From NCBI GenBank assembly GCA_012522505.1, contig JAAYKJ010000092.1, positions 1 through 36,664 on the forward strand: a stretch of DNA of 36,664 nucleotides, written 5' to 3'. This DNA is from Clostridiaceae bacterium (lineage in GTDB: Bacteria > Bacillota > Clostridia > DSM-8532). The notes below the pieces were generated by a model. The model did no database searches. It was not told the origin of the DNA and worked only from the letters and a program-made list of their open reading frames with translations. This document shows positions 2,254-36,438 of this stretch, piece after piece. Position numbers and translations under genes: made by a program. Numbering within the stretch: position 1 is the stretch's first letter; every line of letters starts with the position of its first letter.

Positions 2254-3531
2254 TTATTCTGGCAAAAATGCATCCTCAACATAAGTATTCCTTGCATTCC
2301 AAAATATCCACTCGGAGTACCCAGCATCATACACCGCCTGAATTTGATCTCTGTATTGCTGTGGTCCATATGGAATGTAATACCCTTCTGGCACATAGTT
2401 GTCCGCGGTAAACCCCTGCAGATATGGCCTGACCTTTGTTGAAGAACCGGCCTTCTCCAGCCTGCTCTTTGTGATCAACAGGCTGTTGTATATCACGTTG
2501 TAAGGTTCCTTGTCGGGTTTTGGATACAACACCCCGTTGATGTTTGTACCCGTACCGTTTCCTGACCAGTGCTGGGTGCTGTCGTTGGCGAAATGAGACG
2601 GGTAAATCATCGGTGATATATAGTGAAACTTTTCACTGATGGTTTCCAAAGTCTGACCTATTCCTCCAGCATCGCTCCTTTGAAGACAGATGCTGCCGAA
2701 AATGTCTGCTGACAGGGTTATGCCGGGCAGCTGCTCCCGGGCAGCAAGAACAAAGTCATTGATATAGTCGCTCTTTTCCCGCTCAAGATAGCTCATATCA
2801 TATTTGAAGTTTGTGGTTTCTGGAAATCGAATATAATCGTATTGGAGCTCATCAAAGCCAAGGGATGCTGCCTCCTTCGAGATGTCGATCAGGTACTGCC
2901 ATGCATCTGGATTTGAGGGATCCAACCATGCCAGATGGGAATTATCGAGCGGAACCTTGAACACACTACCGCTGGCATTTTTTAAAGACAGATCGGGTTC
3001 TTTCAAGGGCATCAGTGGATCACTGAAGCAAACAATGCGGCCAATAACCTTGATATTATTTTCATGAAAGGTGTTGATGACCGCATGGACATCGTATTTC
3101 TTCTTCCAGGCCCCATGCTTAACAGCCAGTGGAACCTGCGTTTCATAGCAGATTTCCCCATAATCATCCTTGATATCAATCACATAAGCATTAATTTCGG
3201 TCTTATTGGCAAGATCCACATAATGCTGAAGCTTGGACGGTGTTCCTACCGTACCTGTTGTCAGATACAAACCCTTTACCTCAATGGATGCTGTTGGTGG
3301 CACCGGTATCGGAGTAGGCGTAGGGGTTGGGGTTTGAGTTGGAGTAACTGTCAGCGCAGATGTTGGCGTATGTGTCGCTTCGTGCTGAGCCGCACCTTCG
3401 GTTGCAGCCCCGATAGGTTCCCCATTATCATTGCGACTGTCTCTGATCATACGAGCAACAAGTAATGTAATCCCGGAGGCTGCAATTAAAATAATTAGAA
3501 TACCGACGAATGGGTTCATCCTTCTTCTCAT
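2254..3531 (-). CDS. Membrane-anchored DUF4015 (putative glycoside hydrolase) protein, copy B
   Basis: Predicted surface protein of 425 residues, a paralogue of the downstream gene. Residues 8-28 are a membrane anchor. Residues 50-81 are a low-complexity Thr-Pro linker with repeated TPTP units. The catalytic-like region begins near 84, with VIDIKDDYG near 117-125, a GRIVCFSD strand, and GFDELQYDYIRFPE. The two copies align along the whole domain, including the C-terminal VYDAGYSEWIFWNA-type ending. The start at 3531 (MRRRMNPF) follows AGAGGTG. The longer frame to 3573 would overlap the peptidase gene, whose stop is at 3542. The 10-base gap to that gene indicates an operon. Substrate is unknown. 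Confidence 0.85.
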   Translation of the reverse strand: MRRRMNPFVGILIILIAASGITLLVARMIRDSRNDNGEPIGAATEGAAQHEATHTPTSALTVTPTQTPTPTPTPIPVPPTASIEVKGLYLTTGTVGTPSKLQHYVDLANKTEINAYVIDIKDDYGEICYETQVPLAVKHGAWKKKYDVHAVINTFHENNIKVIGRIVCFSDPLMPLKEPDLSLKNASGSVFKVPLDNSHLAWLDPSNPDAWQYLIDISKEAASLGFDELQYDYIRFPETTNFKYDMSYLEREKSDYINDFVLAAREQLPGITLSADIFGSICLQRSDAGGIGQTLETISEKFHYISPMIYPSHFANDSTQHWSGNGTGTNINGVLYPKPDKEPYNVIYNSLLITKSRLEKAGSSTKVRPYLQGFTADNYVPEGYYIPYGPQQYRDQIQAVYDAGYSEWIFWNARNTYVEDAFLPE

Positions 3532-3541
3532 ACAACACCTC

Positions 3542-4747
3542 TTAATCACTTTTTCTACATTCCAACATTTCAAAAAGAAAAGAAGACATGGCTTTTACTC
3601 CAAATGCCAGACACCGCTCATCCATATCAAATGTTGGCGTATGGTTGCAGGCTTTTATGCCTCTTTCCAGATCTGCTGAACCCAAAAAGAAAAATAAACC
3701 CGATACATCATTTTGAAAACGAGAAAAATCATCTGATCCATGTATAGGTACTTCATGAATGGGTATCACAGAATCACCGATAAGCTTCTTTAAAATCATT
3801 TCAGCCTCTTTGCATTGCTTTTCATCATTGTATACCGGCGGAAGAGAATCTTCGTAATTGACTTTCACTTCAACATTAGGTTGCGCTGCATATTCATTGA
3901 TTATTTTTTCCAACTCTTGTCTGATATCATCCCGGTATTGTTGCATGGCGTATCTGAATAAAGCTTTAATGTGAATTTCTCCGGTTTCGTCATTGCCTTC
4001 TTTCTTAAGTATTTGCAGCTCTACCAAATTATCGGAATCTTTTGTGCCATGTTGATTGATACAACGGTTGACTTTGCTTAGTTTATTGAGAAAAATCTCC
4101 TGCTCTGCCCATGCGTTGAATCTTTCACGCTTAACCTTGATATCAACGGTGAATCTGTCCCAGCCATAAAGAGCCGTACCATAAATAATACTCAGCTCTC
4201 CTGCCTCCATATAACTTTGGTTCGCACCAAGGCTCCCTTGGTGCAGGCCATAGATCGCTGATGGGCGGGGATTGTCCAAAACACCCTCATCGATCATCCT
4301 CTGTGCACCTTTTGAACCCTCTTCAAACGGCTGAAATATAAACTTGATCGTTCCACTTATATCATCCCTGAGAGAGGATAAAACCCGGGCTATGCCCAAT
4401 CCAATCGCTGTATGCGCATCATGCCCACATGCATGCATAACACCGTCAATTTTTGACTTATATGGAATATCCGTTTCTTCCTTTATCGCACATGCATCCA
4501 TGTCTGCACGCCAAGCTAATGTAGCACCCGGTTTGGCACCTTTCAATATGCCGACAACACCATAGCCACCAACATCAGTCTTAACTTCCATTCCCAATGC
4601 AGCAAGTTTCTCGGCAACAAAACGACTTGTTTCTTTTTCTTCACCTGGTAGTTCGGGATACATGTGCAAATGCCTTCTTATATTGATGATGTCGTTCTCT
4701 ATTTCCTTCGTCTTTCGTGAAATTTGCTCATGTGTGTTTTTATTCAT
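3542..4747 (-). CDS. M20-family metallopeptidase / amidohydrolase (AbgA/AbgB-like)
   Basis: Cytoplasmic di-metal hydrolase that cleaves an amide or peptide bond, of 401 residues from the chosen start. Zinc-ligand motifs of the M20D type are visible. They are RHLHMYPELPGEE near 25-37, MHACGHDAHT with Cys107, His109 and His112, PFEEG with Glu142-Glu143, GLH near 169, and a C-terminal GSDDFS plus NHTPTFDMDE. Sequence style resembles aminobenzoyl-glutamate or N-acyl amino acid hydrolases, but the substrate cannot be read from sequence. The ATG at 4747 follows AAGGA at good spacing. A longer frame from 4798 would add a cysteine-rich extension without an SD and is disfavoured. It is the first gene of the run toward uppP. 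Confidence 0.85.
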   Translation of the reverse strand: MNKNTHEQISRKTKEIENDIINIRRHLHMYPELPGEEKETSRFVAEKLAALGMEVKTDVGGYGVVGILKGAKPGATLAWRADMDACAIKEETDIPYKSKIDGVMHACGHDAHTAIGLGIARVLSSLRDDISGTIKFIFQPFEEGSKGAQRMIDEGVLDNPRPSAIYGLHQGSLGANQSYMEAGELSIIYGTALYGWDRFTVDIKVKRERFNAWAEQEIFLNKLSKVNRCINQHGTKDSDNLVELQILKKEGNDETGEIHIKALFRYAMQQYRDDIRQELEKIINEYAAQPNVEVKVNYEDSLPPVYNDEKQCKEAEMILKKLIGDSVIPIHEVPIHGSDDFSRFQNDVSGLFFFLGSADLERGIKACNHTPTFDMDERCLAFGVKAMSSFLFEMLECRKSD

Positions 4748-19658: not shown

Positions 19659-21794
19659 ATGATAAAGAAAAAGGACATTCGAAACAAGAAAACATCTGAC
19701 TTCTTTAAAACTTTGCTGCGTAAAATACGAGAGCATGCAGATGATCGGGCATCGGACAAACAGGTCAGCTTTTTGCGAAAAATTAAAATCCGGCAACGTC
19801 TGATCATTTTCTTTTTGCTGATATCTATTGTTCCGCTTTTGGTTTTGGGTGTTGCTTCGTATCAAAGAGCCAAGTCTGTGTTGACCAATTTGATCAAACA
19901 ATATACAGATCAGGTGGTCGCTCATTTTGGCTCAACTGTATCCATCGAGTTAGGCAATAGTGCCGAATTAGGAGATACTTTTATTTTTTCGGCTATTGTT
20001 CAGGAAAATTTGCAGAAACACGGGGCGATGGAAATGCACGATAAGGTATTAATGCACCGCACGCTTCAGGCCGATATGAACCTAAAAATATCTCAGAACT
20101 CCAATATCAGTGACTTCAGAATATTTCCTCTGGAAGGCGCTCCCATTGTCGTTTCCAATCAGAGCACCGAACTGCCCTATGATGATATGAATGCTGAATT
20201 TACGCAAGTTCCCAATACCTATCGCTGGTCTGCGAGCGAATCCGGTTTCCTTGTCTATGAACGGAAGATCACGGGAATTACTACAGCCAAGAAGCTCGGT
20301 AACATGAGCATTACGATAAGCCCCAATGCCATAAAAAAAATGTTCCTTGATTTGAAAATGGGTAGTTCTGTAGATGTCTTCCTTTTATCCGATCAAGGTC
20401 AGGTAATCTATTCCAACAAAGAAGCGTTTCAGGTAGGATCGATTTTTCCTGATACTTCATTAATGCAATCCATCATATCTCATCAAGATGAACATGGTGT
20501 GAGCACTGGGGCACTGGATATTACTTTTGGGAGGAAAACATATTGCAATTATTATCAACTACATAAAACACCATTCTATATTGTTACACTAACCCCCTAC
20601 TCCTTTTTCAATGCAGCAGGCGATGCGATAGGCATCCTGATTGTTTTTATCGCCATTGCCGGTAGCATGCTGGCTGTATTTCTCGGCTTCTTCATTTCGA
20701 ACAGTATATCAAAGCCTCTTATAAAACTTGTTAACTTGATGCGGAAAGCAAAGCTGGGGGACCTGTCAGAATCAGTAGAAGATAACGGCAAGGATGAAAT
20801 TGGCGAGGTCATCTCCAATTATGGCGAAATGATTTCCAATATTAAAGCCCTCATTCAGAAGGTGAAAGTCTCGGTAGAGGACGTATTGAGCAGTTCCGAC
20901 AAGATTTCAGCCGCCTCTGAGCAAACCTATATCTCATCAGAACAAATTTCAATGACTCTGCAAGAGGTGGCTAAAGGCTCTTCAGATCAAGCCCAGGAGG
21001 TTTCACTTAGCGTTGAATATATGAATAATCTTTCCAACGGTATAAATGAAGTTACCCAAAACTTATCCAACATGTCATCTCTGATATCCAATACAGAGAA
21101 TACCAGTATTGAAGCAATTTCCAAGGTCAAATTGCTCAATGATAAAGCCAGCCAGACAAAGGAGGCATCACAGAGAATCATCGATGAAATCAATAGCCTG
21201 AATGACGATATGAAACAAATCAGAAAGATTGTGAAGCTGATTGTTGGCATTGCAGAGCAAACAAATCTCCTCTCATTAAATGCAGCGATTGAAGCCGCCC
21301 GGGCTGGTGAGGCCGGACGCGGTTTTGCTGTTGTTGCTGATGAGGTGAAAAAGCTTGCAGATCAATCCAAAGAAGCCTCTATCATGATCAATAATATCAT
21401 CAGCGCCATCTACAATAAAACCGAGCATGCGGTATCAGAAGCCAACAATACCAGCATTATCATTGAAGAACAAATGTATGCTGTTGAGCAGACCGACACT
21501 GCGTTCAATACGATTTCAAGTTCCATGAAGGAGATTATCGCCCATAAAGACAATATGGAGGCATCTGTCAGTAATATTCTTGAGTTGAAGGAGAAAACGC
21601 TGACCTCGATGGAAAACATCTCGGCTGTATCGCAGGAAGCTGCGGCCACTTCTCAAGAAGTATCGGCCAGCACCGAAGAGCAAATAGCCAGTGCCGAAAT
21701 CCTAAAAAACCTGTCAAAAGAAATGAATGCAATGGCGAAAGAACTAGAGAACGCTGTTTCCCAGTTCACGATCTCATCTTCAACGAGCGCCTGA
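19659..21794 (+). CDS. Methyl-accepting chemotaxis protein
   Basis: Membrane chemoreceptor of 711 residues that should control the CheA kinase. After a charged N-terminus, membrane helix 1 is near 47-67. A periplasmic-type sensor region covers about 70-318, helix 2 about 320-345 and HAMP about 345-400. The signalling coiled coil has the conserved hairpin tip [35 protein letters not shown] near 533-567. No C-terminal CheR-tethering pentapeptide is present. A TTGGGGGG-type SD precedes the ATG. It is one of only two plus-strand genes, a monocistronic unit with its own terminator. The ligand is unknown. Confidence 0.95.
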
Positions 21795-21936: not shown

Positions 21937-22734
21937 TTAGTGATGAGCTGTATATTTCGATATCGCCTTTGTAGGGCATACTTCAATGCATTTACCACAA
22001 TTTTCACACTTTACCGGATCAATAACTGCACATAGATTATCCATGGTTATCGCTTCAACCGGACAAGTTTTCACACACTTCTGACAACCGATACAGGCAA
22101 CCTGGCAATTTTTTCGTGCAACAGCACCCTTTTCGTGATTGCTGCAAACCACCGAATATTCTGAGCATGCCGGAACAAGCCGAATGATCATTTTGGGGCA
22201 TTCAGCCACGCATTTTCCGCAGGCATTACATTTCGCTTCGTTAATCCGTGCCAGCCCGTTTTCAACAGATATCGCACCAAAAGGACAAACCTTCATGCAG
22301 CTACCCATGCCTACGCAGCCATATATGCATGATGATGGGCCTCCCGCCATGGTAGCGGCCGATCTGCAGTCAATAATACCGTCATAATCAAACTTGATTA
22401 AAACCTTGTCCCAGGTTCCGTTGCACATCACTCTGGCAACCTTTTTTTCACCTGTTGTCGCTTGTACTCCCATAATATCGCTTATTTGCGCGATCGCATC
22501 GGCACCTCCAACCGGGCATTTTGAAATTTCTGCGCCTTCTACAATCGCTTCAGCATATTGTTCACAGCCGCTATATCCGCAGGCACCACAGTTTGCACCC
22601 GGAAGCACCCCGCTAATTTGCTCTATACGCTGATCTGCCTCAACTGCAAACTTCTTTGAGGTATAAGACAGCGCCAGCCCAAAAACCAGCCCCAGGCCAG
22701 ATATAACCGCCACAGGAATAATGATCTGTATCAT
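21937..22734 (-). CDS. rnfB: Rnf complex subunit RnfB (iron-sulfur protein)
   Basis: Electron-entry subunit of Rnf, accepting electrons from reduced ferredoxin. An N-terminal membrane helix covers about 3-22. The 4Fe4S domain has Cys49, Cys52, Cys57 and Cys73. Four ferredoxin-like motifs follow: CIYGCVGMGSCMKVCP, CNACGKCVAECP, CIGCQKCVKTCP and CENCGKCIEVCP. The protein has 265 residues. The start at 22734 follows GAGGTGG, while an in-frame extension to 22788 is not supported. It is the last gene of the operon, after a 108-base gap from rnfA. Confidence 0.96.
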   Translation of the reverse strand: MIQIIIPVAVISGLGLVFGLALSYTSKKFAVEADQRIEQISGVLPGANCGACGYSGCEQYAEAIVEGAEISKCPVGGADAIAQISDIMGVQATTGEKKVARVMCNGTWDKVLIKFDYDGIIDCRSAATMAGGPSSCIYGCVGMGSCMKVCPFGAISVENGLARINEAKCNACGKCVAECPKMIIRLVPACSEYSVVCSNHEKGAVARKNCQVACIGCQKCVKTCPVEAITMDNLCAVIDPVKCENCGKCIEVCPTKAISKYTAHH

Positions 22735-22842
22735 AAAGCCACCTCTTTCCGTTATTTGCCCTATCTTCTGCGGAAACTCCGGATACATGTATATACCGCA
22801 GGCAAATCGTATGATTGTTTCAATGGCATTCGCTTCACGCCG

Positions 22843-23424
22843 CTATATCCCGAACAAGCCTGAGAACCCAACAAACGCAACAGAAACCAGCGCTGCAGCG
22901 ATCAATGTGATGGGAAGACCTTGAAACGCAATTGGAATATCACTTGTCTCCATTCTTTCCCTTACGCCGGAAAACAGAATGAGTGCCAGTGTGAACCCCA
23001 CTGCAGCAGCAAATCCGAACACGGTTGCCTGCACTAAGGTATAATTTCTTTCCATGTTTAAAAGAGCAGCGCCCAACACCGCACAATTTGTAGTTATCAG
23101 CGGCAAATAAATGCCCAGTGCCTTATAGAGCGCAGGCATAAACTTTTTCAGCACAGTTTCGACAAACTGTACCAGCGCAGCTATGACCAGAATAAACGCG
23201 ATAGTCTGCAGATATGCCAAGTCATATGGTTTCAGCAGGTATTCATTAACCGACCAGGTGACAATCGATGACAGGGTCATGACGAATACAACCGCTCCGC
23301 CCATGCCAATGGCTGTCGATGATTTTTTGGATACACCCAGAAATGGGCAGATTCCTAAAAACTTTGTCAAAACGAAATTCTCAACCAGGATCGCTGATAC
23401 AGCTATCAGGATGATTTCTTTCAT
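22843..23424 (-). CDS. rnfA: Rnf complex membrane subunit RnfA
   Basis: Six-helix membrane protein of 193 residues, homologous to RnfE and NqrE. Together they form the central membrane core that holds an iron-sulfur centre between inverted repeats. Typical stretches are ENFVLTKFLGICPFLGVSKK with the conserved Cys, and GIYLPLITTNCAVLGAALL with the second conserved Cys. The ATG overlaps the rnfE stop as ATGA, and GGAGGTGATCC is just upstream. Confidence 0.97.
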   Translation of the reverse strand: MKEIILIAVSAILVENFVLTKFLGICPFLGVSKKSSTAIGMGGAVVFVMTLSSIVTWSVNEYLLKPYDLAYLQTIAFILVIAALVQFVETVLKKFMPALYKALGIYLPLITTNCAVLGAALLNMERNYTLVQATVFGFAAAVGFTLALILFSGVRERMETSDIPIAFQGLPITLIAAALVSVAFVGFSGLFGI

Positions 23425-24110
23425 GATGGATCACCTCCATTAGAACCAGAGGCACTGCAGCCCGGGCAATTCAACCCGCAGCCCGAGGCAATCTCCTTGT
23501 TCCTGATTTTTAACGCAGAGAACTTATTGATGGCTGCTATGATAAAGCCAAAAGCCAGAAACCCTCCAGGAGGAAGGATCATCAACACAGCTGGATCAAA
23601 GATATCCTTCGTCAGTGGCAGCCCAAACCATGTTCCCGCACCAAGAATTTCCCGGATTGAACCCATGATCAGCAGGGCAAGCGTAAAGCCAGCTCCCATG
23701 CCCAGGGCATCCAGAATGGACAATCCCACCGAGTTTTTACAAGCAAACATCTCCGCTCTCGCTAATATGATACAGTTTACAACGATCAACGGAATAAAGA
23801 TGCCCAATTCCCTGTAAATATCCTGCGCGTAAGCATGCAGCAGCATCTGTACAATGGTGGTAAACCCTGCGATTACCGTTATGAATACCGGAATTCTCAC
23901 CTTATTGGGTACAATTTTTCGGATAAGGGAGATCACAATGTTCGAACCCAACAGCACAAAGGTTGCTGCAATGCCCATACCAATCGCGTTTTTCGCCATT
24001 GTCGTAACCGCCAGCGTCGGACATGTCCCCAATACAAGCCTTAAAACAGGATTTTCCTTTATCAGGCCGTTTGTCAGCACCGCGAATGATTTTCCCTTTG
24101 CTTTTGCCAT
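23421..24110 (-). CDS. rnfE: Rnf complex membrane subunit RnfE
   Basis: Membrane subunit paired with RnfA, of 229 residues. The core shows ENPVLRLVLGTCPTLAVTTMAKNA and GIFIPLIVVNCIILARAEMFA with the two conserved cysteines. After the last helix there is a short Cys-rich tail, CGLNCPGCSASG, absent from the RnfA paralogue. The ATG at 24110 follows a G-rich SD (AGGGGGGG) by eight bases. A GTG at 24119 would destroy that spacing. It begins one base after the rnfG stop. Confidence 0.96.
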   Translation of the reverse strand: MAKAKGKSFAVLTNGLIKENPVLRLVLGTCPTLAVTTMAKNAIGMGIAATFVLLGSNIVISLIRKIVPNKVRIPVFITVIAGFTTIVQMLLHAYAQDIYRELGIFIPLIVVNCIILARAEMFACKNSVGLSILDALGMGAGFTLALLIMGSIREILGAGTWFGLPLTKDIFDPAVLMILPPGGFLAFGFIIAAINKFSALKIRNKEIASGCGLNCPGCSASGSNGGDPS

Positions 24111-24111
24111 T

Positions 24112-24690
24112 TCAGTCACCCCCCCTTATGATAGCTGCAGTATCAAGTGCAGCTTGAACACCGTCTGTAATGCTGCGTGAAGAAATGGTTGCTCCGGCAA
24201 CAGCCTGAATTTCATTTGCCTTGTTTGTATTCTGTTTCACCACAACCAACGCATCCTCCATTACCTCCGCCAACTGATTGCCAGCAGACTGGACTAATAA
24301 CTCCTGTCCTGTCGCTTTGGATCCAAGCCCGGGAGTTTCGTTATTCGCTCCGACAACAACACCAGTTATCTGCCCTTCAGAATTGATGCCAACAGTCATA
24401 CTGACATCTCCGCCATACCCCTTCGTTGTGATTTCCATGATGAAACCAATCGATTCGTTTCCGCGAAAGCCCTCATAAACACTGTCAATCGCTTCCGGGA
24501 TTCCTTCCGGTTCAATCTGTAAAAACCTGTCGGCAGCAGTGAGCACCTGCTTGCGAAATCCTTCCTGCTCAAGCCTTGTATTCTCTTCTATGATATCCTT
24601 CGTCATGCCATTGATAAAAGCAAGAGAACCTGAAATCACCAGGCATACGACAAAAAGAACCACTGCTGGTTTTACAATACTATTCCACAT
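24112..24690 (-). CDS. rnfG: Rnf complex flavoprotein subunit RnfG
   Basis: Extracytoplasmic flavoprotein of 192 residues anchored by an N-terminal helix (about 6-27). The FMN-attachment motif is AGATIS at 165-170, with Thr168 the expected site of covalent FMN. NNETPGLGSKATGQ near 117-129 is also conserved in RnfG/NqrC. The start at 24690 has GGAGGTG eight bases upstream. It overlaps the rnfD end by eleven bases. Confidence 0.96.
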   Translation of the reverse strand: MWNSIVKPAVVLFVVCLVISGSLAFINGMTKDIIEENTRLEQEGFRKQVLTAADRFLQIEPEGIPEAIDSVYEGFRGNESIGFIMEITTKGYGGDVSMTVGINSEGQITGVVVGANNETPGLGSKATGQELLVQSAGNQLAEVMEDALVVVKQNTNKANEIQAVAGATISSRSITDGVQAALDTAAIIRGGD

Positions 24691-25627
24691 GACGTTCACC
24701 TCCAAAGCTGACCGGCACTGTATGACGGTCGATTAGCGGTGTTACGATGTTCATCAGAATGATGGCGAAGGAAACCCCCTCAGGCATATTGCCATACAGA
24801 CGGAAAAGCGATGTCAGCACACCACAGCCAATGGCAAAAATGATCCTTCCTTTTCGGGTGATCGGGTTGGTGACATAATCGGTTGCCATGAACACAGCAC
24901 CAAGCATGAGCCCTCCTGCCAGTATATGATATAGCGGATCTCCCGTAAACAAGCCATCCGGACCCAAAACCCAGGTTAGCAAGGCAACGGTTCCCACAAA
25001 AAACACAGGTATTCGCCAGGTTATGACCTTCCTGGCAAGTAGCCAGGCACAACCTAAAAGGATTGCAAAAGCCGAGGTTTCTCCGATACAGCCTGCGATA
25101 TTACCCCAAAAAAGTTCGGAGTAGGAGAAGGACTGAAGCGTTCCTTCCTTCAAAGCTCCCAAAGGTGTGGCTGTTGCCACTGCATCGGTGACAGGATCTG
25201 TCCAGGTTGTCATTCTTCCTGCCCAAGCAACCACAAGCATTACTCTTGCACCCAGTGCTGGATTCATAAAGTTCTGTCCAAGTCCACCAAAAAGCTGCTT
25301 AATTAATGCAATTGCAATGACACTGCCTACGATCGCAATCCATATCGGGATGGACGGAGGCAAGTTCAGTGCCAGCAGCAGTCCTGTTACAACAGCACTA
25401 AGGTCGGAAACAGTCTGTTCTCTTTTCAGACCCAGCCGCATCAGATACTCCGTCAATACGGCTGCAGCAACAGTTACGATGATAACCAGTGCGGCACGCA
25501 TGCCGAAAAACCAAATACCGGCTACTACCGCAGGTAACAGGGCGATGATGACATCCAGCATGATTTTGCGGGTTGACGCATTCTCTCTCAGATGAGGAGA
25601 GGAGCTTACAAACAATCTATTCTCCAA
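24680..25627 (-). CDS. rnfD: Rnf complex membrane flavoprotein subunit RnfD
   Basis: Multi-pass membrane subunit of 315 residues carrying a covalent FMN. It begins with SSSPHLRENASTRKIMLDVI, typical of RnfD. The flavin site region is DAVATATPLG near 148-157, with a threonine at 152 or 154 as the attachment residue. LFGGLGQNFMNPALGARVML and the MATDYVTNPIT stretch are family hallmarks. The start is a TTG at 25627 with AGGTGA seven bases upstream. No closer ATG exists before the first helix. Confidence 0.95.
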   Translation of the reverse strand: MENRLFVSSSPHLRENASTRKIMLDVIIALLPAVVAGIWFFGMRAALVIIVTVAAAVLTEYLMRLGLKREQTVSDLSAVVTGLLLALNLPPSIPIWIAIVGSVIAIALIKQLFGGLGQNFMNPALGARVMLVVAWAGRMTTWTDPVTDAVATATPLGALKEGTLQSFSYSELFWGNIAGCIGETSAFAILLGCAWLLARKVITWRIPVFFVGTVALLTWVLGPDGLFTGDPLYHILAGGLMLGAVFMATDYVTNPITRKGRIIFAIGCGVLTSLFRLYGNMPEGVSFAIILMNIVTPLIDRHTVPVSFGGERHVE

Positions 25628-25702: not shown

Positions 25703-27013
25703 TCATGCTTTCTTTGCATTCTTTCTCACAGCATCCTTGCCGATCCGGATAGACTGGACCAGATACCGTTTCGCAGGACAGACATACGAACAGCTGCCAC
25801 ATTCGATACAATCCAGAATATGGTACGCACCCAGTTCGTCATATTTTCCCGCCATGACCAGCCTGTTCAAGTCGGATGGAATGAGATGCATAGGACAAGC
25901 ATCAACACATCGACCACAACGGATGCAAGCAGATTCCGAAGGCAGATCCCCTTCTTTTTTATCGAATGCCAGAATGGCATTGGTATTCTTGATCACCGAG
26001 GTATCCAGTGAATACTGAGCGATTCCCATCATCGGTCCGCCCATTAATATTTTAAAGGGCTTTTCCTGAAACCCGCCGCAAAAGTCGATAAGATCCCTCA
26101 GCGAAGTGCCAATGGGGACAAGCACATTTTGGGGCCGCTTAATCACAGGCCCGTCCACTGTGACCCGCTTATGGATCAGGGGCATGCCTGTTTCAATATA
26201 GCTCGCAATAAAAGACACACTATTCACATTTAAAACAATACATCCAACATCTGCTGGAAGCTTCCCTCCGGCGGGTACTTTTCTTCCTGTAACGGTGTAA
26301 ATAAGCGTTTTCTCCGCCCCCTGCGGGTAACGTGAATGAAGCGTCTTTACCGAAATCCTGTTATCTGCTGCTGCCTTCTCAGTTAAAAGCTGAATAGCCT
26401 TCGGCTTATTATCTTCAACACCGATAATCGCTTTTGGAATGCCAAGCATGTCCAACACCAATTGAATCCCTTTGATGACTCCATGGGCATTCTCCATCAG
26501 CTCTCTGTAGTCCGAAGTAATGTAAGGTTCACATTCGGCACCGTTGATAATCAGATATTCAATACTCTTGTCCTTCGGTGGGTTCAACTTAACATGAGTG
26601 GGAAACCCGGCGCCGCCAAGACCAACAAGGCCGGAATTGCGAAGTGCCTTCAGAAAATCATCCCTTGAGTGAATCACCGGAGGTTGAATGTTCTCATCGA
26701 CATCCTGATTCCCGTCCGTTTGTATTTCTACAGACATAACCTGTTTGCCACTGGCATAAAGCATCGGCTCAACTCTGGTTACCGTTCCTGATACACTGGC
26801 GTGTACCGGTGCGGAAACATACGCTTCAGAATTCCCAATTACCTGACCAACCTTTACCAGGTCACCTTTTTTCACCGTTGGTGTACAGGGGGCTCCAATA
26901 TGTTGGACCATTGGAATGATGACCCGTGAAGGAATGTCCATCACCAGGGTTTTCGATTCTTCAGTGTTTTTACGGTGTGGTGTGTTAACACCCCCACGAA
27001 ATATCTTTAACAC
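25703..27013 (-). CDS. rnfC: Rnf complex NADH-binding subunit RnfC
   Basis: Peripheral subunit of 436 residues that exchanges electrons with NAD. It begins FRGGVNTPHRKN. The NADH/FMN region contains GLVGLGGAGFPTHVKL and INGAECEPYIT. Two ferredoxin motifs close the protein, CIRCGRCVDACP near 362-373 and CIECGSCSYVCP near 400-411. The start is a GTG at 27013 preceded by GAGGTGATAAG. It is the first gene of rnfCDGEAB, the standard clostridial order, with a promoter about 290 bases upstream. Confidence 0.97.
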   Translation of the reverse strand: MLKIFRGGVNTPHRKNTEESKTLVMDIPSRVIIPMVQHIGAPCTPTVKKGDLVKVGQVIGNSEAYVSAPVHASVSGTVTRVEPMLYASGKQVMSVEIQTDGNQDVDENIQPPVIHSRDDFLKALRNSGLVGLGGAGFPTHVKLNPPKDKSIEYLIINGAECEPYITSDYRELMENAHGVIKGIQLVLDMLGIPKAIIGVEDNKPKAIQLLTEKAAADNRISVKTLHSRYPQGAEKTLIYTVTGRKVPAGGKLPADVGCIVLNVNSVSFIASYIETGMPLIHKRVTVDGPVIKRPQNVLVPIGTSLRDLIDFCGGFQEKPFKILMGGPMMGIAQYSLDTSVIKNTNAILAFDKKEGDLPSESACIRCGRCVDACPMHLIPSDLNRLVMAGKYDELGAYHILDCIECGSCSYVCPAKRYLVQSIRIGKDAVRKNAKKA

Positions 27014-27397: not shown

Positions 27398-28756
27398 CTA
27401 TTTTTCCATAGACGATAAGTCCAATTCAAACGTCGATATTACCAATGGTAAATCATGTATTTCTGTACCCTCAAGGCACTGAGGTAAAAAGGGAAAGTTT
27501 AGGGCTGCAGCACTTCTGATTTTCAGCTCCTGTAGCCTGCCCTCATCCTGTCGTACAAGGAGCGCCAGTGTACCGTAGGCTTCGGGTTCACGAACAATAG
27601 CCTCCCCTGAGCCATCCATTCTGCAGGGGCTTTTTACATCGCCATGGGGCATATCCTCTGCGATCTGGTCAATCAGTTCCAGTGACAGCAGCGCATCCTC
27701 CATCATTAGCATGACTCGTGCAAAGCAATTGCTGCCGGCAGCCTGTGGGATGGTATAAGAAAGTTTTGACCACGGTAACACGGAATCTTTTCGAAAATCC
27801 TTCGAAATACCAGCTGCCCTGACAGCCCTCCCGGTCATCAGCCGGGCAGAACGATCGTCAACAATTCCATTCTTTTTCAGTCTTCTTGCGATTGAAGGAG
27901 TACCTTCCCATTGGTCCCGAATATCCTTCAAATCTTCTTCCATTTCCTGTATGATAGCATTTACCGTATACAGCGTCTCTATTGTAATATCACGGCTTAA
28001 GCCACCCGCTTCCAAAACCCCTGAAAACTGAGGGTGTTCACTTATTAAGGCAGCTGCTTCGCAATACAAACCAATAAGCTTAAATATCCGAGCACTGCAG
28101 GCGGCCAAACCCAGACTTTGAGCTGTGTGGCTCAAACTATGCAGGCTGGCATGCAAATAAGTCATTTCCATCAGGAACATCCTAAGCCACCGTGCTTTTT
28201 CCGGCACATCCACCCCATGCATTTTTTCAAGGGCATGCACGAATGCAAGACCCATGCAGAATCCATTCATTGCAGAGGTTCTCTCCAACATTTCCAATAC
28301 TTCCTCAGCTTTTCGCCCTGCACAGGATTCTTCCAGACCACGGTAATTATACCCGGTTTCTATACAGGTGCTTTCAATCACTTCGTCTTTCAATCCCAAC
28401 CTGAATTTAACCGGTTCTGGAAGCAACGGATGGAACGGCCCCCATTCAATCACAGAACTGTCGGGGTGTTTCGTCATTCGGGGAAAAAAAGAAATGGGAT
28501 ACCGTTGTGTGATTTCATGCTGCATTTGTTCTCCCTGAGGGAATACCTCAACAACCGAGGGGATCTCATAATTGGGCGGAACACTGGCTTTAACAATTTC
28601 TATATCTCCTTCTTTTTCAAGGATATATTCCAGTATAATCTTGTTTTCGGCCTGAGTGGCATTTATCATCAGCAGGTTATATCCCCTGGATTTAAAGGTA
28701 AACCATTTCCCTGCCAGAGAACTACTTTGTTTTTCGCTCCAACTTTTTCTCATCAT
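27398..28756 (-). CDS. Ehr-type large subunit (NuoC-NuoD / hydrogenase large-subunit-like) without NiFe ligands
   Basis: Protein of 452 residues. Residues 28-110 resemble NuoC/30-kDa, with IPSVVEVFPQGEQMQHEITQRYPISF. Residues 110-452 resemble NuoD and group 4 hydrogenase large subunits, with GYNYRGLEESCAGRKAEEVLEMLERT. The NiFe-site cysteines are all replaced: the RxCGIC region reads RTSAMN (Ser161, Asn164), and the C-terminal DPCxxC reads ELDLSS (Asp446, Ser449). The protein therefore should not be a hydrogenase. It matches the pattern described for Ehr, energy-converting hydrogenase-related complexes. The ATG overlaps the small-subunit stop as ATGA. What it oxidises or reduces, if anything, is unknown. 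Confidence 0.85.
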   Translation of the reverse strand: MMRKSWSEKQSSSLAGKWFTFKSRGYNLLMINATQAENKIILEYILEKEGDIEIVKASVPPNYEIPSVVEVFPQGEQMQHEITQRYPISFFPRMTKHPDSSVIEWGPFHPLLPEPVKFRLGLKDEVIESTCIETGYNYRGLEESCAGRKAEEVLEMLERTSAMNGFCMGLAFVHALEKMHGVDVPEKARWLRMFLMEMTYLHASLHSLSHTAQSLGLAACSARIFKLIGLYCEAAALISEHPQFSGVLEAGGLSRDITIETLYTVNAIIQEMEEDLKDIRDQWEGTPSIARRLKKNGIVDDRSARLMTGRAVRAAGISKDFRKDSVLPWSKLSYTIPQAAGSNCFARVMLMMEDALLSLELIDQIAEDMPHGDVKSPCRMDGSGEAIVREPEAYGTLALLVRQDEGRLQELKIRSAAALNFPFLPQCLEGTEIHDLPLVISTFELDLSSMEK

Positions 28757-29187
28757 ATTTTCCTGCTTCCTTCTTTCTCAAGGCTGGCTCCGATTGCTCG
28801 GACCACAGCTTCGAGCATTTCGTGCATATCCGGCGTACAGCCCCGAATCCAGGCATCCACTGGCAAAATATCTTCTGTCGTATATAAGTTGTTTTCGGAT
28901 GTGCGGAACAGGCTTCCTGAACAGGAACAGGCCCCTGCAGCAATTACAGCCTTAGGTTCTGGCATCTGTTCATACAGCTGCAAGATGGCTTCCCTGGATT
29001 TTTCATTAATGCACCCAGTAACAAGCAGCGCGTCCGCATGTTTTGGGTTTCCTGTAACACTAATGCCTTTGATTTCGTTTTCCAAAGACATGCCCATAGA
29101 AAACTGCAGCGCACAACCTCTGCACCCACCAGCCTGGACAACCAATATCGATATGGAGCGCAACCCATTATTTAAAAGCCAACTCAT
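28753..29187 (-). CDS. Ehr-type small subunit (NuoB / hydrogenase small-subunit-like)
   Basis: Protein of 144 residues homologous to NuoB and group 4 hydrogenase small subunits. Cys22 and Cys25 (GGCRGC), Cys87 (GAC; Cys89 is an alternative) and Cys117 (RGCTP) can bind one [4Fe-4S] cluster equivalent to N2 of complex I. The ligand set is intact, unlike the NiFe site in its partner. AAGGAG precedes the ATG. It is translationally coupled to the large subunit gene. It should sit at the junction of the cytoplasmic and membrane arms. Confidence 0.88.
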   Translation of the reverse strand: MSWLLNNGLRSISILVVQAGGCRGCALQFSMGMSLENEIKGISVTGNPKHADALLVTGCINEKSREAILQLYEQMPEPKAVIAAGACSCSGSLFRTSENNLYTTEDILPVDAWIRGCTPDMHEMLEAVVRAIGASLEKEGSRKI

Positions 29188-29283
29188 GTTCTCTCTCCTT
29201 CTCCTTCTAGGTCTTTCCTTAGGGAAACCCTATTTCTTAATTCCTGCCCGGTACGTACAAGGAGGTGCCTTCAAACAGAAATG

Positions 29284-30129
29284 CTAAAACAAGTACAACC
29301 AGATAAAGTTCATCACAGACATTCCTCCGCCCCAGAGAAACGCATTCCTGGCAACCTTCTTCCACCGTGCTTTTGGGATAAAACCGTCTGTCAGCAGAAA
29401 TGCAAGATAGCAAATCGCTAATACTGTGAAAGAGAACCACGGTTTCCATGGCAAAAACACCGATATCAGTTTTAGCCATACCCCTATTTCCACCCATCGG
29501 GTGATCTGTGTGATACCAAGACTCCAACCACTATAAGGTGTATACAGAGCAGAATCAAGAATATTCAATGCTTTACCGGTGATATTGAAATCGAAGAAAA
29601 GCAGACTTCCCCGTATCAGCAGAACCACTATCATGGCAAGGAAAGCCAGTGGAAGTTTCAACAATAGATAATGCATCCAGGAATATGCCATCATCTCCTT
29701 AAGGCTGAGTGTACCCGTAACTTGATACAAGGAAGCAGCGGATACCATGAAGGTAAATGCACAGATAAAAAACCTTGCAATTCCTCTTTGAGCCGCCATG
29801 GAGCCAAACGGTTCCCGAGCATTCCATGACCCTGCCAGTATAAAAAGCTCCATCATGACGAGGGATGTAAAGATAAAAAGAATATTCTCTCCCCTGACGG
29901 TGAAAAACAACGCACAGATTGCAAACCAACAGGAGACGATGGAAAACCAGTGAGCGGGATCGTTGGTTTTCATCCCCCTTTTCCCAAACAATTTCATCAG
30001 CCTGTAGATGGGTTGCAACAGGTATGACTTATTATACCCTGGCATCATGGAACGGATAAAGTTTTCTATAAGATAAAGCACCGGAACAACGATCATGATG
30101 ACCAAAAACCATATTAAGCTTTGAAGCAT
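29284..30129 (-). CDS. Ehr-type membrane subunit (NuoH / EchB / HycD-like)
   Basis: Polytopic membrane protein of 281 residues. LLQPIYRLMKLFGKRG near the N-terminus is the NuoH/HycD-type amphipathic loop. YSGWSLGITQITRWVEIGVWLKLISVFLPW matches the C-terminal part. By eye the glutamates usual in this family are missing. The segment corresponding to QxxxYE reads RFFICAF, and the THLELxxxHEAMxLEYSG region reads KALNILDSALYTPYSG. The start at 30129 follows GGGGGTGG and overlaps the upstream gene by 16 bases. The longer frame from 30186 is disfavoured. Family placement is good and functional loss is inferred. Confidence 0.82.
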   Translation of the reverse strand: MLQSLIWFLVIMIVVPVLYLIENFIRSMMPGYNKSYLLQPIYRLMKLFGKRGMKTNDPAHWFSIVSCWFAICALFFTVRGENILFIFTSLVMMELFILAGSWNAREPFGSMAAQRGIARFFICAFTFMVSAASLYQVTGTLSLKEMMAYSWMHYLLLKLPLAFLAMIVVLLIRGSLLFFDFNITGKALNILDSALYTPYSGWSLGITQITRWVEIGVWLKLISVFLPWKPWFSFTVLAICYLAFLLTDGFIPKARWKKVARNAFLWGGGMSVMNFIWLYLF

Positions 30130-31955
30130 GATAATGCCACCCCCACAAGAAGCATCATGGTGGCTATCCATCCTGCACGTATCCAAAAAAAGATACGGTT
30201 ATTGGAAGGAAGCCATGCGGTCAGAGAATAAGCTTTGAAAGGCTGCACTTCCTCTGCAGTCTTTTGGACTTTCTCCCTGCCGTATATTTCGTATACGATG
30301 AAAACGGCACCCATGATAATTATACTGATAACAAGAAAGATAACACCTGTGCCAAATTTATTCAAATGTACGATTCCCGGTAAAGACGCATATTTCTCAA
30401 TATCTGCAGCAGGCCAAACACCCATTGGCAAAGACTGACTTTGAAGGTAACGGTAAATCGTGCCGGATAACAGATTGACCGCAACCGTTATTACGAAAAG
30501 AAACATCAGTTCACACTTCAAAAAAACCGATAGTTTTCGCGCATCTGGGTTCTGCGTGATCCCTTCACGGAGCAAATCCAGAAGCCACCGTAAAACTACA
30601 GTAGTCATGAAAACAAGCCCTGCAACAGCCAACAGCATAGCAAGGGGATATTGGGCCATAAGCTGTACAACAACCAGTTTGAGCAATGATGAAGAAAATG
30701 GAGCAAACAGGAACATCAGCAGCACAAAGGCCTTAAACAGGGACAGCTGCTTTACCATACCCTTTCGCTTACCCGATTGATCCGGTTCTTCCAGGTCATC
30801 CTTAACCGTAACACACGCGAAAAGGAAAGGAAGGGATGCTGCGGTGGCAATGACATAACAGAAGGTAAAGAATATCCCTTCCAGACCCGTAAAAACAGCT
30901 GCAAAGGCCCAGCCGGAAACAAACAGCACCATGTGAGAAAGAATCTCTTCCTTATGCTGAGATACTCCTGCATAGTAAGCGTTGGCCGCCATCAGAATGC
31001 CTCCGAGGAAGACAGCAGACGCGGCCAGTTTATTGTCGAGGTTGATGAACAACGGACGGAATTTTAATAGAACAGAGAAAGGAATGAGCAGGGAGTACAT
31101 TATCACAGATAGCCCTTTGATCGATGTCGGATATGAAGAATACTGCCTCGCCATAACTTTTTCCGGGATCATTCTGCCCATTACAAGAACCATAAAAAGC
31201 ACAAGAATCATAACCAGCCCTGTGGCAGACCCGAACCCTGATAAATCCTCCATGGCAAGAGAGCCTGCCGTCTGGTTCAGATATACCGATGCACCAATCC
31301 AAATGGTCAGCATGCTTTGTTGAAGTATCAGAACAAATTTCGCATTTTGCCGGTTCTGATCGAATGCTTTTTGAAAATAGTTATCTGCAAGAACCCCCCA
31401 CTGGCCGAACAAAAACAAGCCTGTGATGCTTCTTGCCGAAAGAATTCCGGCAAAAGCAGCCATCAGCAAAAATATTCCGGTGAAAAATGCTCTGTTCCGG
31501 GTGGGTGATTTCGACAAACTGGATGATCTATGTAAATGTGAAAGAATTCCTGGAAGTAACGCCATCAGCGCAAACGCACCTGAAACCAGTAACAACCCTC
31601 CTTCATACTGAAACTGTAGAAAAACTGTCGGTTCGTCAGGGGATAATAATGTTTCAGCCAGGATAAGTGTAACAGACTGAACAAAGATGAGGGATGAAAC
31701 GATAAACTGCTTGTCCCGCATCGTTGTAACAAAAAGAACAGCAACGGTTGCCAGGGTTATTAACTTCCAGAGAACCTGCGGTATATAAACGCGAATTGCA
31801 TCCATCGGTACAATCAGTTGATAAAGCGCTGTCAGGAAAAATAAAACTGCAAAACCGATCAATAAACCCTGCCGCCCTTTTCCCCTGAGAACAAATACCG
31901 CTACAAACAACAGGAGTAATGGACCCAACACAAACCCGACTACAGTTACTGGCAT
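30114..31955 (-). CDS. Ehr-type antiporter-like membrane subunit (NuoL/M/N, MrpD-like)
   Basis: Large membrane protein of 613 residues with about 14-16 hydrophobic segments. It is distantly like NuoL/N, EchA and MrpD. A recognisable TM8 region is SQHKEEILSHMVLFVSGWAF, with Lys335. TM12-like APFSSSLLKLVVV keeps Lys426. The usual TM5 Glu appears as Gln185 in FLFGQWGVLADNYF. The TM7 Lys position reads Leu253, and the PFHSWLP motif is reduced to GRMIPEK. Proton channelling through the first half is therefore doubtful. The start at 31955 follows AAAGGAA. It is the first gene of the four-gene operon, with a promoter about 110 bases upstream. Confidence 0.8.
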   Translation of the reverse strand: MPVTVVGFVLGPLLLLFVAVFVLRGKGRQGLLIGFAVLFFLTALYQLIVPMDAIRVYIPQVLWKLITLATVAVLFVTTMRDKQFIVSSLIFVQSVTLILAETLLSPDEPTVFLQFQYEGGLLLVSGAFALMALLPGILSHLHRSSSLSKSPTRNRAFFTGIFLLMAAFAGILSARSITGLFLFGQWGVLADNYFQKAFDQNRQNAKFVLILQQSMLTIWIGASVYLNQTAGSLAMEDLSGFGSATGLVMILVLFMVLVMGRMIPEKVMARQYSSYPTSIKGLSVIMYSLLIPFSVLLKFRPLFINLDNKLAASAVFLGGILMAANAYYAGVSQHKEEILSHMVLFVSGWAFAAVFTGLEGIFFTFCYVIATAASLPFLFACVTVKDDLEEPDQSGKRKGMVKQLSLFKAFVLLMFLFAPFSSSLLKLVVVQLMAQYPLAMLLAVAGLVFMTTVVLRWLLDLLREGITQNPDARKLSVFLKCELMFLFVITVAVNLLSGTIYRYLQSQSLPMGVWPAADIEKYASLPGIVHLNKFGTGVIFLVISIIIMGAVFIVYEIYGREKVQKTAEEVQPFKAYSLTAWLPSNNRIFFWIRAGWIATMMLLVGVALSCFKA

Positions 31956-32062
31956 ACTTTGTGTTCCTTTCAGCAATATATGGTTGCCGACCCGGGTAAA
32001 ACCGGATAAAACGGTTTACAATCCTGTTCTTTTTCTTCCCCGGGAACCAAAAACCCAAATCA

Positions 32063-34197: not shown

Positions 34198-36438
34198 ATG
34201 AAGGTATTGCATTTAATAGGCGGCGGTGATGTAGGTGGCGCAAAAACCCATGTTCTGTCGCTGGTAAAACAACTTGAAAACCATATCCGCGTGAAATTGA
34301 TCTGTCTGCGCTCTGGCCCCTTTGCCGATGACGCCGAAGAAATGGGAATTGACGTGGAGGTCGTCCGATCCGGAAATATTTTTAAGGATATTCGTACAAT
34401 CCAAAACATCGTATTCACCGGTGAGTATAATATTCTTCACACCCATGGCGCCAAAGCAAATATGATCGGTGTCTTTGTTAAAAAGAAAACAGGTATTCCG
34501 GTTGTTTCAACCGTACATAGTGATTACCGGCTCGACTATTTGCACAGTGTGCTGAAAATGTACACTTTTGGCCTTATCAATACCATTGCTTTACGGTTGG
34601 TGGATTATTATATCGCGGTTTCACTAAATTTCAAGGATATGCTGATCAAGCGAGGGTTTGCTGCCGATCGGATTCAAACGGTATATAATGGTATTCCCTT
34701 CGATCAACCCATTGATCTAATGCCACGTGCAGAGTTTTGCAGGAAGTACGGAATAACCCTTCAGTCCGGCGATGTTGCCATCGGAATTCTTGCCCGGCTC
34801 CATCCGATCAAGGGCCATTCGGTTTTTCTGGACGCAGCCGCAAAGGTAGTCAAGAAGCACCCTAACGCAAAGTTTCTTATCGGCGGGCCTGATGAAAACA
34901 ACCTGCGCGCAACACTGGAAAAAAGAGTGGACCAGCTGGGCATCCAAAATAATGTGTTTTTCCTCGGCACGGTAGAAGAACCGTTTTCTTTTTTTGAATA
35001 TATAGACATTAACGTACTGGCTTCCTATAGCGAAAGCTTTCCTTATGTCATTCTGGAAGGTGCGCGTATGAAAAAAGCAACTGTTTCCAGCAGAGTGGGC
35101 GGGCTTGAAGATCTTTTCATTCAAGGTGAGAACGGTTACCTGTATCCTCCGGGTGACAGCAATGCCCTGGCTGGGCATTTGTTAACCCTGCTCGACAACC
35201 CTGAAAAAAGAAAAATTATCGGTGAAAACCTTTATCAAACAGCCCGGGACCATTTTTCCCTACAGTCAATGACCGATACCCAGCTGAATATTTACAACAC
35301 CATTCTTGCAAAAGAGAGACAATTTCTAGCGGACGGCAAGGTACATGATATTGCCATCCTAGGGTATTATGGCTATCGCAACAGCGGTGACGACGCGATT
35401 TTGAAGTCCTTTGTCGATCATCTGCAAATTCATCGAAGAGGCCTCTCTACCGTTGTATTATCCAATGACCCGTCAGAAACTCGTACCGTGTACCGTGTTC
35501 AGGCAATCCATCGGTTTAATCTTTTCCGCATCCCTGCACTTTTGTCCAGAACACGGGTTTTTATCGCAGGCGGTGGAACACTGATTCAGGATGATACCAG
35601 CAACCGTTCTTTATGGTACTATCTATATATATTGCACCTGGCCTTAAAGAAGGGTGCTCATGTGGTTCTTCTTGCCAATGGATTAGGGCCATTAACCGGA
35701 AAGATGAACCGCAAGGTCGCTTCCAGTATTTTAAACAGGCTGGACGCAATCACACTTCGAGATCCCAACGCATATGAAGAGCTTAAGTCGCTGGGGGTTA
35801 CCCTCCCTGTTACCAAAATTGCTGCAGATCCGGCACTGGCTCTTTCATCCTGTGATACAAATGTTGGTGCGGAAATACTTAAGATCTGCGGAATCCCGCT
35901 GGAAGAAAAATTATTCGCACTGTGTCTGCGAAAATGGAAGAAAGTAAAGCATTCCGAAAAAATTCTGGCATCCTTTGCGGATCAAATTGTGACAGACTTT
36001 CATGCAGTACCGGTTTTCGTACCGATGCAACACCCTGAAGATGTACGGTACGCTCGCAAAGTCCTTAGAAACATGAAGCAGAAGGGCTATATTCTGTCAA
36101 ACCGGTATACGGTGAACGAAACCCTTTCTATTCTAGCGAATACATCGCTGGTCATCGGCATGCGGCTGCATTCGTTGATTTATGCCATGACCCTGGGTGT
36201 TCCGATGGTCGGCCTGGCCTATGAACCCAAGATTGACTATTTCATGGAATCCATACATCAGCCTTTTGTTGCATGGAATCAAAACTTTTCCATGGAGGAA
36301 CTTATAAAGAAAACACATGAGGTGTGGCGGAACGCACCTGAAATCAAGGTTGAATTGAAAAAAATGAAACCGCAGCTTGAAGAGAAAGTAAAAGAAGCGA
36401 TGGATCTGACCCTGTCATACCTGCCTAAACTTCCATGA
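34198..36438 (+). CDS. Fused GT4 glycosyltransferase and CsaB-type polysaccharide pyruvyl transferase
   Basis: Protein of 746 residues with two catalytic domains. Residues 1-375 are a GT-B, GT4-family glycosyltransferase: LHLIGGGDVGGAKTHVLSL at the N-terminus, GILARLHPIKGHSVFLDA near 197, and the EX7E motif in ESFPYVILE. Residues 385-746 match CsaB, which pyruvylates secondary wall polymer so that SLH-domain proteins can bind: LGYYGYRNSGDDAIL, FIAGGGTLIQD, ANGLGPL, ITLRDPNA, and MRLHSLIYAMTLGVPMVGLAYEPK. An AGGAG SD is six bases before the ATG. No frameshift or linker break is seen, so this is a true fusion. Pyruvylation as its function is inferred from the family. Confidence 0.9.
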   Translation: MKVLHLIGGGDVGGAKTHVLSLVKQLENHIRVKLICLRSGPFADDAEEMGIDVEVVRSGNIFKDIRTIQNIVFTGEYNILHTHGAKANMIGVFVKKKTGIPVVSTVHSDYRLDYLHSVLKMYTFGLINTIALRLVDYYIAVSLNFKDMLIKRGFAADRIQTVYNGIPFDQPIDLMPRAEFCRKYGITLQSGDVAIGILARLHPIKGHSVFLDAAAKVVKKHPNAKFLIGGPDENNLRATLEKRVDQLGIQNNVFFLGTVEEPFSFFEYIDINVLASYSESFPYVILEGARMKKATVSSRVGGLEDLFIQGENGYLYPPGDSNALAGHLLTLLDNPEKRKIIGENLYQTARDHFSLQSMTDTQLNIYNTILAKERQFLADGKVHDIAILGYYGYRNSGDDAILKSFVDHLQIHRRGLSTVVLSNDPSETRTVYRVQAIHRFNLFRIPALLSRTRVFIAGGGTLIQDDTSNRSLWYYLYILHLALKKGAHVVLLANGLGPLTGKMNRKVASSILNRLDAITLRDPNAYEELKSLGVTLPVTKIAADPALALSSCDTNVGAEILKICGIPLEEKLFALCLRKWKKVKHSEKILASFADQIVTDFHAVPVFVPMQHPEDVRYARKVLRNMKQKGYILSNRYTVNETLSILANTSLVIGMRLHSLIYAMTLGVPMVGLAYEPKIDYFMESIHQPFVAWNQNFSMEELIKKTHEVWRNAPEIKVELKKMKPQLEEKVKEAMDLTLSYLPKLP

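Follow-up and report, generated by a model that had tools for sequence, protein, structure and literature searches.

What becomes of a hydrogenase-like complex that cannot hold its catalytic metal? This question is raised by a four-gene cassette at positions 27398-31955 of a 36,664-nucleotide stretch of DNA (the window; contig JAAYKJ010000092.1, assembly GCA_012522505.1) from a Clostridiaceae bacterium. The cassette encodes relatives of complex I and group 4 hydrogenases. An earlier description made from the letters alone (the sequence-only reading) took it for a minimal energy-converting hydrogenase-related (Ehr) complex. Here we tentatively propose, giving the idea slightly less than an even chance, that an ech (group 4e) operon was remodelled to yield this cassette, which would serve Rnf as an accessory module with one cluster and no pumping activity.

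The cassette and its NiFe site

The cassette contains four genes, all on the minus strand and in the order L-H-B-CD. L (30114-31955) encodes an EchA/NuoL-like membrane subunit of 613 amino acids from a conserved ATG; its open reading frame opens at 31976, and 31955 is the correct end coordinate, corresponding to the ATG at conserved Met8. H (29284-30129) encodes an EchB/NuoH-like membrane subunit (PF00146, NADHdh, 1e-10; MbhM, 8.7e-9). Its open reading frame opens at 30186, but the likely start is the invariant Met20 (30129), which gives 281 amino acids. B (28753-29187) encodes an EchC/NuoB-like small subunit of 144 amino acids (PF01058, Oxidored_q6, 8.7e-21; MbhJ, 3.5e-30). CD (27398-28756), which likely starts at the invariant Met2, encodes a NuoCD-like large subunit of 452 amino acids in which EchD and EchE are fused (PF00346, Complex1_49kDa, 1.9e-20; HycE, 6e-39; MbhL, 3e-38), and its predicted model (pLDDT 60) has the fold of the 49 kDa/NuoD subunit. 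Neither the open reading frames nor a Pfam search revealed a NuoI/EchF-type two-cluster ferredoxin gene in the cassette; rnfC occupies the position expected for echF. Thus, the gene set of the sequence-only reading, with its NuoH-like and NuoL-like membrane subunits and no NuoI-type subunit, was confirmed.

The same reading had claimed that all four NiFe ligands of the large subunit are replaced. When a profile of the CD family was aligned to MbhL and HycE, Ser161, Asn164, Asp446 and Ser449 fell exactly on the four NiFe cysteines, as claimed. Ser161-Ala-Met-Asn164 (28265-28276, minus strand) replaces the first CxxC pair and Asp446-Leu-Ser-Ser449 (27410-27421, minus strand) the last, and an invariant Met-Glu-Lys (MEK) follows immediately at the C-terminus. 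We found 11 orthologs in four genera (g1, g3, g4 and g6), 45-63% identical to the window protein, and none has a cysteine at any ligand position. Ser is constant at the first position and Asp at the third; the second is Asn or Ser, and the fourth Ser, Ala or Gly. As the same substitutions recur across the 11 orthologs, they are not a sequencing slip. By contrast, wherever the match spans both motifs, no cysteine is missing from the group 4 large subunits that were read, which included Ech, Hyc and CxxC hydrogenases of this class and phylum. His109, Glu142, Cys145, Arg159 and Asp446 of CD are conserved, Cys145 invariantly.

HypD is required for building the Fe(CN)2CO unit. Among 32 genomes of the family, we found HypD in five (G001, G009, G020, G021 and G022), and these are exactly the genomes that have a group 4 hydrogenase with CxxC motifs. 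HypD was not found in 10 of the 11 cassette genomes, among them the 99% complete genome from which the window comes and the complete genome G026, a single contig; therefore, the NiFe cofactor cannot be made in those ten. The remaining one, G020, carries the cassette and a normal hydrogenase side by side. Additionally, six cassette genomes were checked for [FeFe] hydrogenases; every one has them, and they could cover its hydrogen metabolism. That the cassette still encodes a hydrogenase, with Ser, Asn and Asp serving as alternative metal ligands, is scarcely conceivable: oxygen ligands do land exactly on the four positions, but the fourth varies, HypD is missing and [FeFe] hydrogenases are at hand.

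The small subunit and its cluster

Cys22, Cys25, Cys87 and Cys117 of B, which the sequence-only reading had assigned to a single N2-like cluster, are invariant in all 11 orthologs and have a spacing like that of membrane-bound hydrogenase, so the predicted cluster stands. Two further cysteines, Cys59 and Cys89, are also invariant (11/11). The invariance of the four ligands and the two extra cysteines suggests that the cluster matters. Cys59 (codon at 29011-29013, minus strand) occurs in no other homolog read. It aligns without gaps with the position of Arg83 of Thermus Nqo6, next to the proximal cluster; in Nqo6, the side chain of Arg83 is located at N2 (PMC8042128). We rejected two further ideas about these cysteines. 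Cys89 is frequent among Ech small subunits and is no novelty of the cassette, and a six-cysteine cluster as in O2-tolerant hydrogenases does not fit because the cysteine positions differ.

A conserved cluster next to an emptied NiFe cavity could itself be the catalyst. The cassette would then be a stand-alone reductase, in which the [4Fe-4S] cluster reduces a small molecule (a sulfur species or a disulfide) and Rnf is a mere neighbour sharing ferredoxin or NADH. The model for such an enzyme is the Pyrococcus sulfane sulfur reductase (MBS/Mbx), a group 4 descendant that has lost two of the four NiFe ligands and kept the proximal cluster, which acts as the catalyst (PMC7684303). In the cassette, Cys145 and Cys59, the latter at the N2-adjacent Arg83 position, are invariant, and His109, Glu142, Cys145, Arg159 and Asp446 of CD would surround the cluster. 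However, catalysis by MBS needs a shortened loop and three cysteine ligands, whereas the CxxC of B aligns without gaps to MbhJ and full coordination by four ligands is expected. MBS also retains ferredoxin input, through the clusters of MbsN, and intact proton pumps, whereas the cassette has no input clusters and its pump residues are mostly gone. This explanation, the chief rival of our proposal, also leaves the linkage to Rnf unaccounted for, and we consider it unlikely.

Membrane subunits and ion path

The membrane subunits have lost nearly all conserved residues of the ion path. In H, the positions of NuoH Arg46, Asp63, Glu157, Glu220 and Glu228 are fully or almost fully conserved across the 38 NuoH/HycD/EchB proteins used as references, yet each of the 10 orthologs that were read has other residues there. 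A Glu at the Glu218 position is found in only one of the 10, and the Glu36 and Asp213 positions are retained in part. L is a remote homolog of the antiporter-like subunits. Pfam and PDB sequence searches with L gave no match, but hhalign against 38 NuoL/M/N/HycC/Ech antiporters returned 98.2% (E 3.5e-14), compared with 0.1-0.5% for the controls RnfA, RnfD, RnfE and NuoH. A low-confidence predicted model of L (pLDDT 56) aligned with the NuoL-type chain 8iuf_N5 (VIA-align Z 14.0, root mean square deviation 5.8, 378 residues aligned), and all 50 matches listed in the structure comparison belonged to the NuoL/ND5/Mrp family. Glu144 in transmembrane helix 5 of NuoL (38/38 references) is replaced by Gln in 11/11 orthologs (Gln192 in the window protein), and Lys229 in transmembrane helix 7 (37/38 references) by Met, Leu, Ile, Ser or Cys (11/11; Met266 in the window protein). 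Lys305 is invariant across the cassette family. With most of the ion path gone from both membrane subunits, canonical ion pumping by this arm is improbable.

Two peculiarities of L were seen in individual lineages. In genus g6 (L021, L022, L023 and L026), L is only ~445 amino acids long and lacks internal and C-terminal helices seen in the other genera. In one metagenome-assembled genome (G018; L027:9243-11075), the L gene contains one in-frame stop, which may be an assembly error or mark a disrupted gene.

Descent of the cassette

The gene order of the cassette is that of ech, A-B-C-D-E, with D and E fused and EchF missing. The first 100 amino acids of CD match EchD open reading frames (2e-11); thus, echD and echE have been fused. 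The ech locus of a relative (G001) runs A-B-C-D-E-F-hyp, whereas the cassette runs A-B-C-DE-rnfC, so that echF and hyp are missing. In a tree of large subunits, the cassette proteins form a single clade with a support of 100/100. Its stem is long, at 2.47 changes per column, and it is sister to Ech with a support of 98/91, or 99/97 when the small subunit is added. Further likenesses to Ech (EchABCDEF) are the four cluster cysteines and Cys89, which many Ech proteins share. The cassette differs from Ech in lacking the NiFe ligands and, in 10 of 11 genomes, HypD, as well as in its lost A/B ion-path residues and its linkage to Rnf.

These trees do not bear out the clustering with Ehr that the sequence-only reading had envisaged. 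Three ligand-less Ehr-like sequences, all from the same phylum, served as references (L033, L149 and L151). They nest within the 4f/Hyf clade and have a ferredoxin domain joined to their small subunit, which sets them apart from the cassette. A joint clade of the cassette and these sequences was rejected by the approximately unbiased test (p-AU 0.039 for the large subunit, 0.0017 for both subunits). Grouping the cassette with NuoD gave a worse fit but was not firmly excluded (p-AU 0.085). With a long branch and three Ehr-like references, we regard an origin from Ech (group 4e) as likely, short of proof. The NiFe site would then have been lost in a further line besides those of Ehr and complex I, one that probably descends from Ech.

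The name Ehr still applies in a loose sense, because the published definition covers group 4-related complexes without Ni/Fe ligands (PMC6349859, PMC10284858), but common descent with the Ehr-like references is not supported. Like the Ehr of Sulfobacillus, comammox Nitrospira and Margulisbacteria, the cassette is a ligand-less group 4 relative of obscure function. However, the described Ehr complexes have several antiporter-like subunits, and the cassette has one, which is degenerate. A minimal Ehr that couples some redox reaction to ion translocation would account for a set of subunits typical of the complex I superfamily and for the Ehr-like ligand loss (PMC6349859, PMC4378227). What survives of that proposal is a ligand-less group 4 relative with one predicted cluster and no NuoI-type input. 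Its energy-converting part is weakened by the loss of NuoH Glu157, Glu220 and Glu228 (10/10) and of NuoL Glu144 and Lys229 (11/11), by the shortening of L to ~445 amino acids in one genus, and by the rejected clade with 4f-type Ehr; we judge it very unlikely. Separately, genome G021 encodes a second ligand-less group 4 relative with the motifs ETIAGDST...SFNLSYCG (L033:1990-3522; identical protein in L016). This protein, from the same bacterial family, falls among the Ehr-like 4f-clade proteins and is unrelated to the cassette.

The cassette resembles complex I (the 11-subunit NuoA-N type) in its NuoB, NuoCD, NuoH and NuoL homologies, in the absence of NiFe cysteines and in the retained His of the GPxHP motif (GPFHP here; Nqo4 His38). 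It differs in that the position of the quinone-ligating Tyr (Nqo4 Tyr87) is Ala162, which is variable in the cassette family, and in having only one, degenerate, antiporter-like subunit. In searches of the cassette genomes for two routes of quinone synthesis, MqnA gave no match and MenD only matches below the cut-off.

Linkage to Rnf and distribution

A complete rnfCDGEAB operon, absent from the sequence-only reading, lies 385 bases downstream of the cassette on the same strand. It comprises rnfC (25703-27013; TIGR01945, 508.8 bits), rnfD (24680-25627; TIGR01946), rnfG (24112-24705; FMN_bind PF04205, 1.2e-19; TIGR01947, 101.2 bits, just below the cut-off of 102), rnfE (23421-24119; TIGR01948), rnfA (22843-23424; TIGR01943) and rnfB (21937-22788; TIGR01944), all on the minus strand. 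The order rlmB, then L-H-B-CD-rnfCDGEAB, was found in 11/11 genomes from the four genera, with one contig stopping inside rnfD. This constant placement ahead of rnfC is the best pointer to a partner of the cassette. In 19 genomes of the family that have Rnf without the cassette, unrelated genes (for instance, glutamine synthetase) stand upstream of rnfC where this region was read. The cassette is an addition in one lineage. A chemoreceptor-like (methyl-accepting chemotaxis protein) gene (19659-21794, plus strand) is convergent with rnfB.

A contig search with a single protein as query gave no match, and a search with an alignment returned only the same lineage and one Omnitrophota hydrogenase. 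Beyond the family, the cassette was not found in genome samples of the class (391) and the phylum (398), which yielded only hydrogenases of ~25% identity. The cassette is lineage-restricted within the sampled genomes.

Within genera, the ratio of nonsynonymous to synonymous substitution rates (dN/dS) was 0.11-0.28 for the cassette genes and 0.05-0.16 for the Rnf genes. Purifying selection acts on every one of these genes, less tightly on those of the cassette. These values bear on two further explanations. One is that the cassette is the relic of a decaying ech operon, in keeping with its long stem and the in-frame stop in one L gene. We find this highly improbable, given reading frames that are otherwise intact in 11 genomes of four genera, the dN/dS values, the invariant cluster ligands and the peptides detected for part of the co-located clusters of Clostridium stercorarium (PMC4102724). 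The other is that the cassette is a structural pseudo-enzyme, a scaffold that assembles or stabilizes the membrane part of Rnf and whose cluster takes no part in redox chemistry. In its favour, three subunits have lost residues for catalysis, quinone binding and the ion path while selection is purifying; the invariance of six cysteines in 11/11 orthologs, the four ligands of the cluster among them, argues against a purely structural function, which we hold to be decidedly unlikely.

A model for the cassette

To our knowledge, no Rnf (ferredoxin:NAD+ oxidoreductase) with Ech-like subunits has been described. In our proposal of an Rnf accessory module, an ech operon would have lost its catalytic metal, the ferredoxin subunit EchF and its pump, and the remainder would persist as a membrane-anchored, one-cluster module. 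The four proteins may assemble as in Ech, with B on CD and with H and L as the anchor, and this complex may dock onto Rnf in the membrane. The single [4Fe-4S] cluster could then exchange electrons with a ferredoxin-type subunit of Rnf (RnfB or RnfC), which would substitute for the missing EchF. For Rnf, the module would be a side-branch of electron flow, a gate or a stabilizer, and it would neither produce H2 nor pump ions itself. A bolder form of this model is a ten-subunit respiratory complex, in which the ligand-less, pump-less Ech-derived module is permanently joined to Rnf and the cluster together with Cys59 forms an extra redox branch or gate. We regard this form as possible but rather doubtful.

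Several observations weigh against a functional union with Rnf. The tie is known from gene linkage (11/11), from which physical association is inferred. The gap between CD and rnfC is ~150-385 bases across genomes and may hold a promoter, so a single transcript is uncertain; a promoter and terminator scan of the locus found nothing beyond chance. Across the family, the genes around Rnf keep part of their order in any case, and the cassette represents one lineage, so the linkage may simply be inherited. A search for changes in Rnf that track the cassette turned up nothing striking, only minor substitutions confounded by phylogeny. Finally, most Rnf subunits evolve more slowly than the proteins of the cassette, and one L gene (L027) is interrupted by the in-frame stop.

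Clostridium stercorarium

In C. stercorarium DSM 8532, a 'dimeric Ni-Fe hydrogenase' has been listed as co-located with Rnf, and peptides cover some components of the hydrogenase/Rnf clusters (PMC4102724). Genome G026 is probably C. stercorarium, judging from its kinship to Thermoclostridium and this published co-location. Its counterpart of CD, at C1:2625554-2626918, lacks the NiFe ligands, and the genome lacks HypD. The 'Ni-Fe hydrogenase' of C. stercorarium is thus apparently the cassette, and the annotation, apparently wrong, should be revised.

Other genes in the window

A 746-amino acid open reading frame (34198-36438, plus strand) appears by eye to join a glycosyltransferase with a CsaB-like polysaccharide pyruvyl transferase domain; its place near mrnC is conserved in several relatives. 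Two similar tandem open reading frames (717-2069 and 2254-3573, minus strand) encode putative secreted glycoside hydrolases and appear to be a local duplication.

Implications

The general view of the complex I superfamily is that its members are redox-driven ion pumps. If our model is true, the cassette would be a clear case of a superfamily member that has turned into a non-pumping partner of a second respiratory complex. The cassette corrects an apparent Ni-Fe hydrogenase annotation in a cultivated species, C. stercorarium, and it poses an experimental question about the control of Rnf in thermophilic lignocellulose fermenters.

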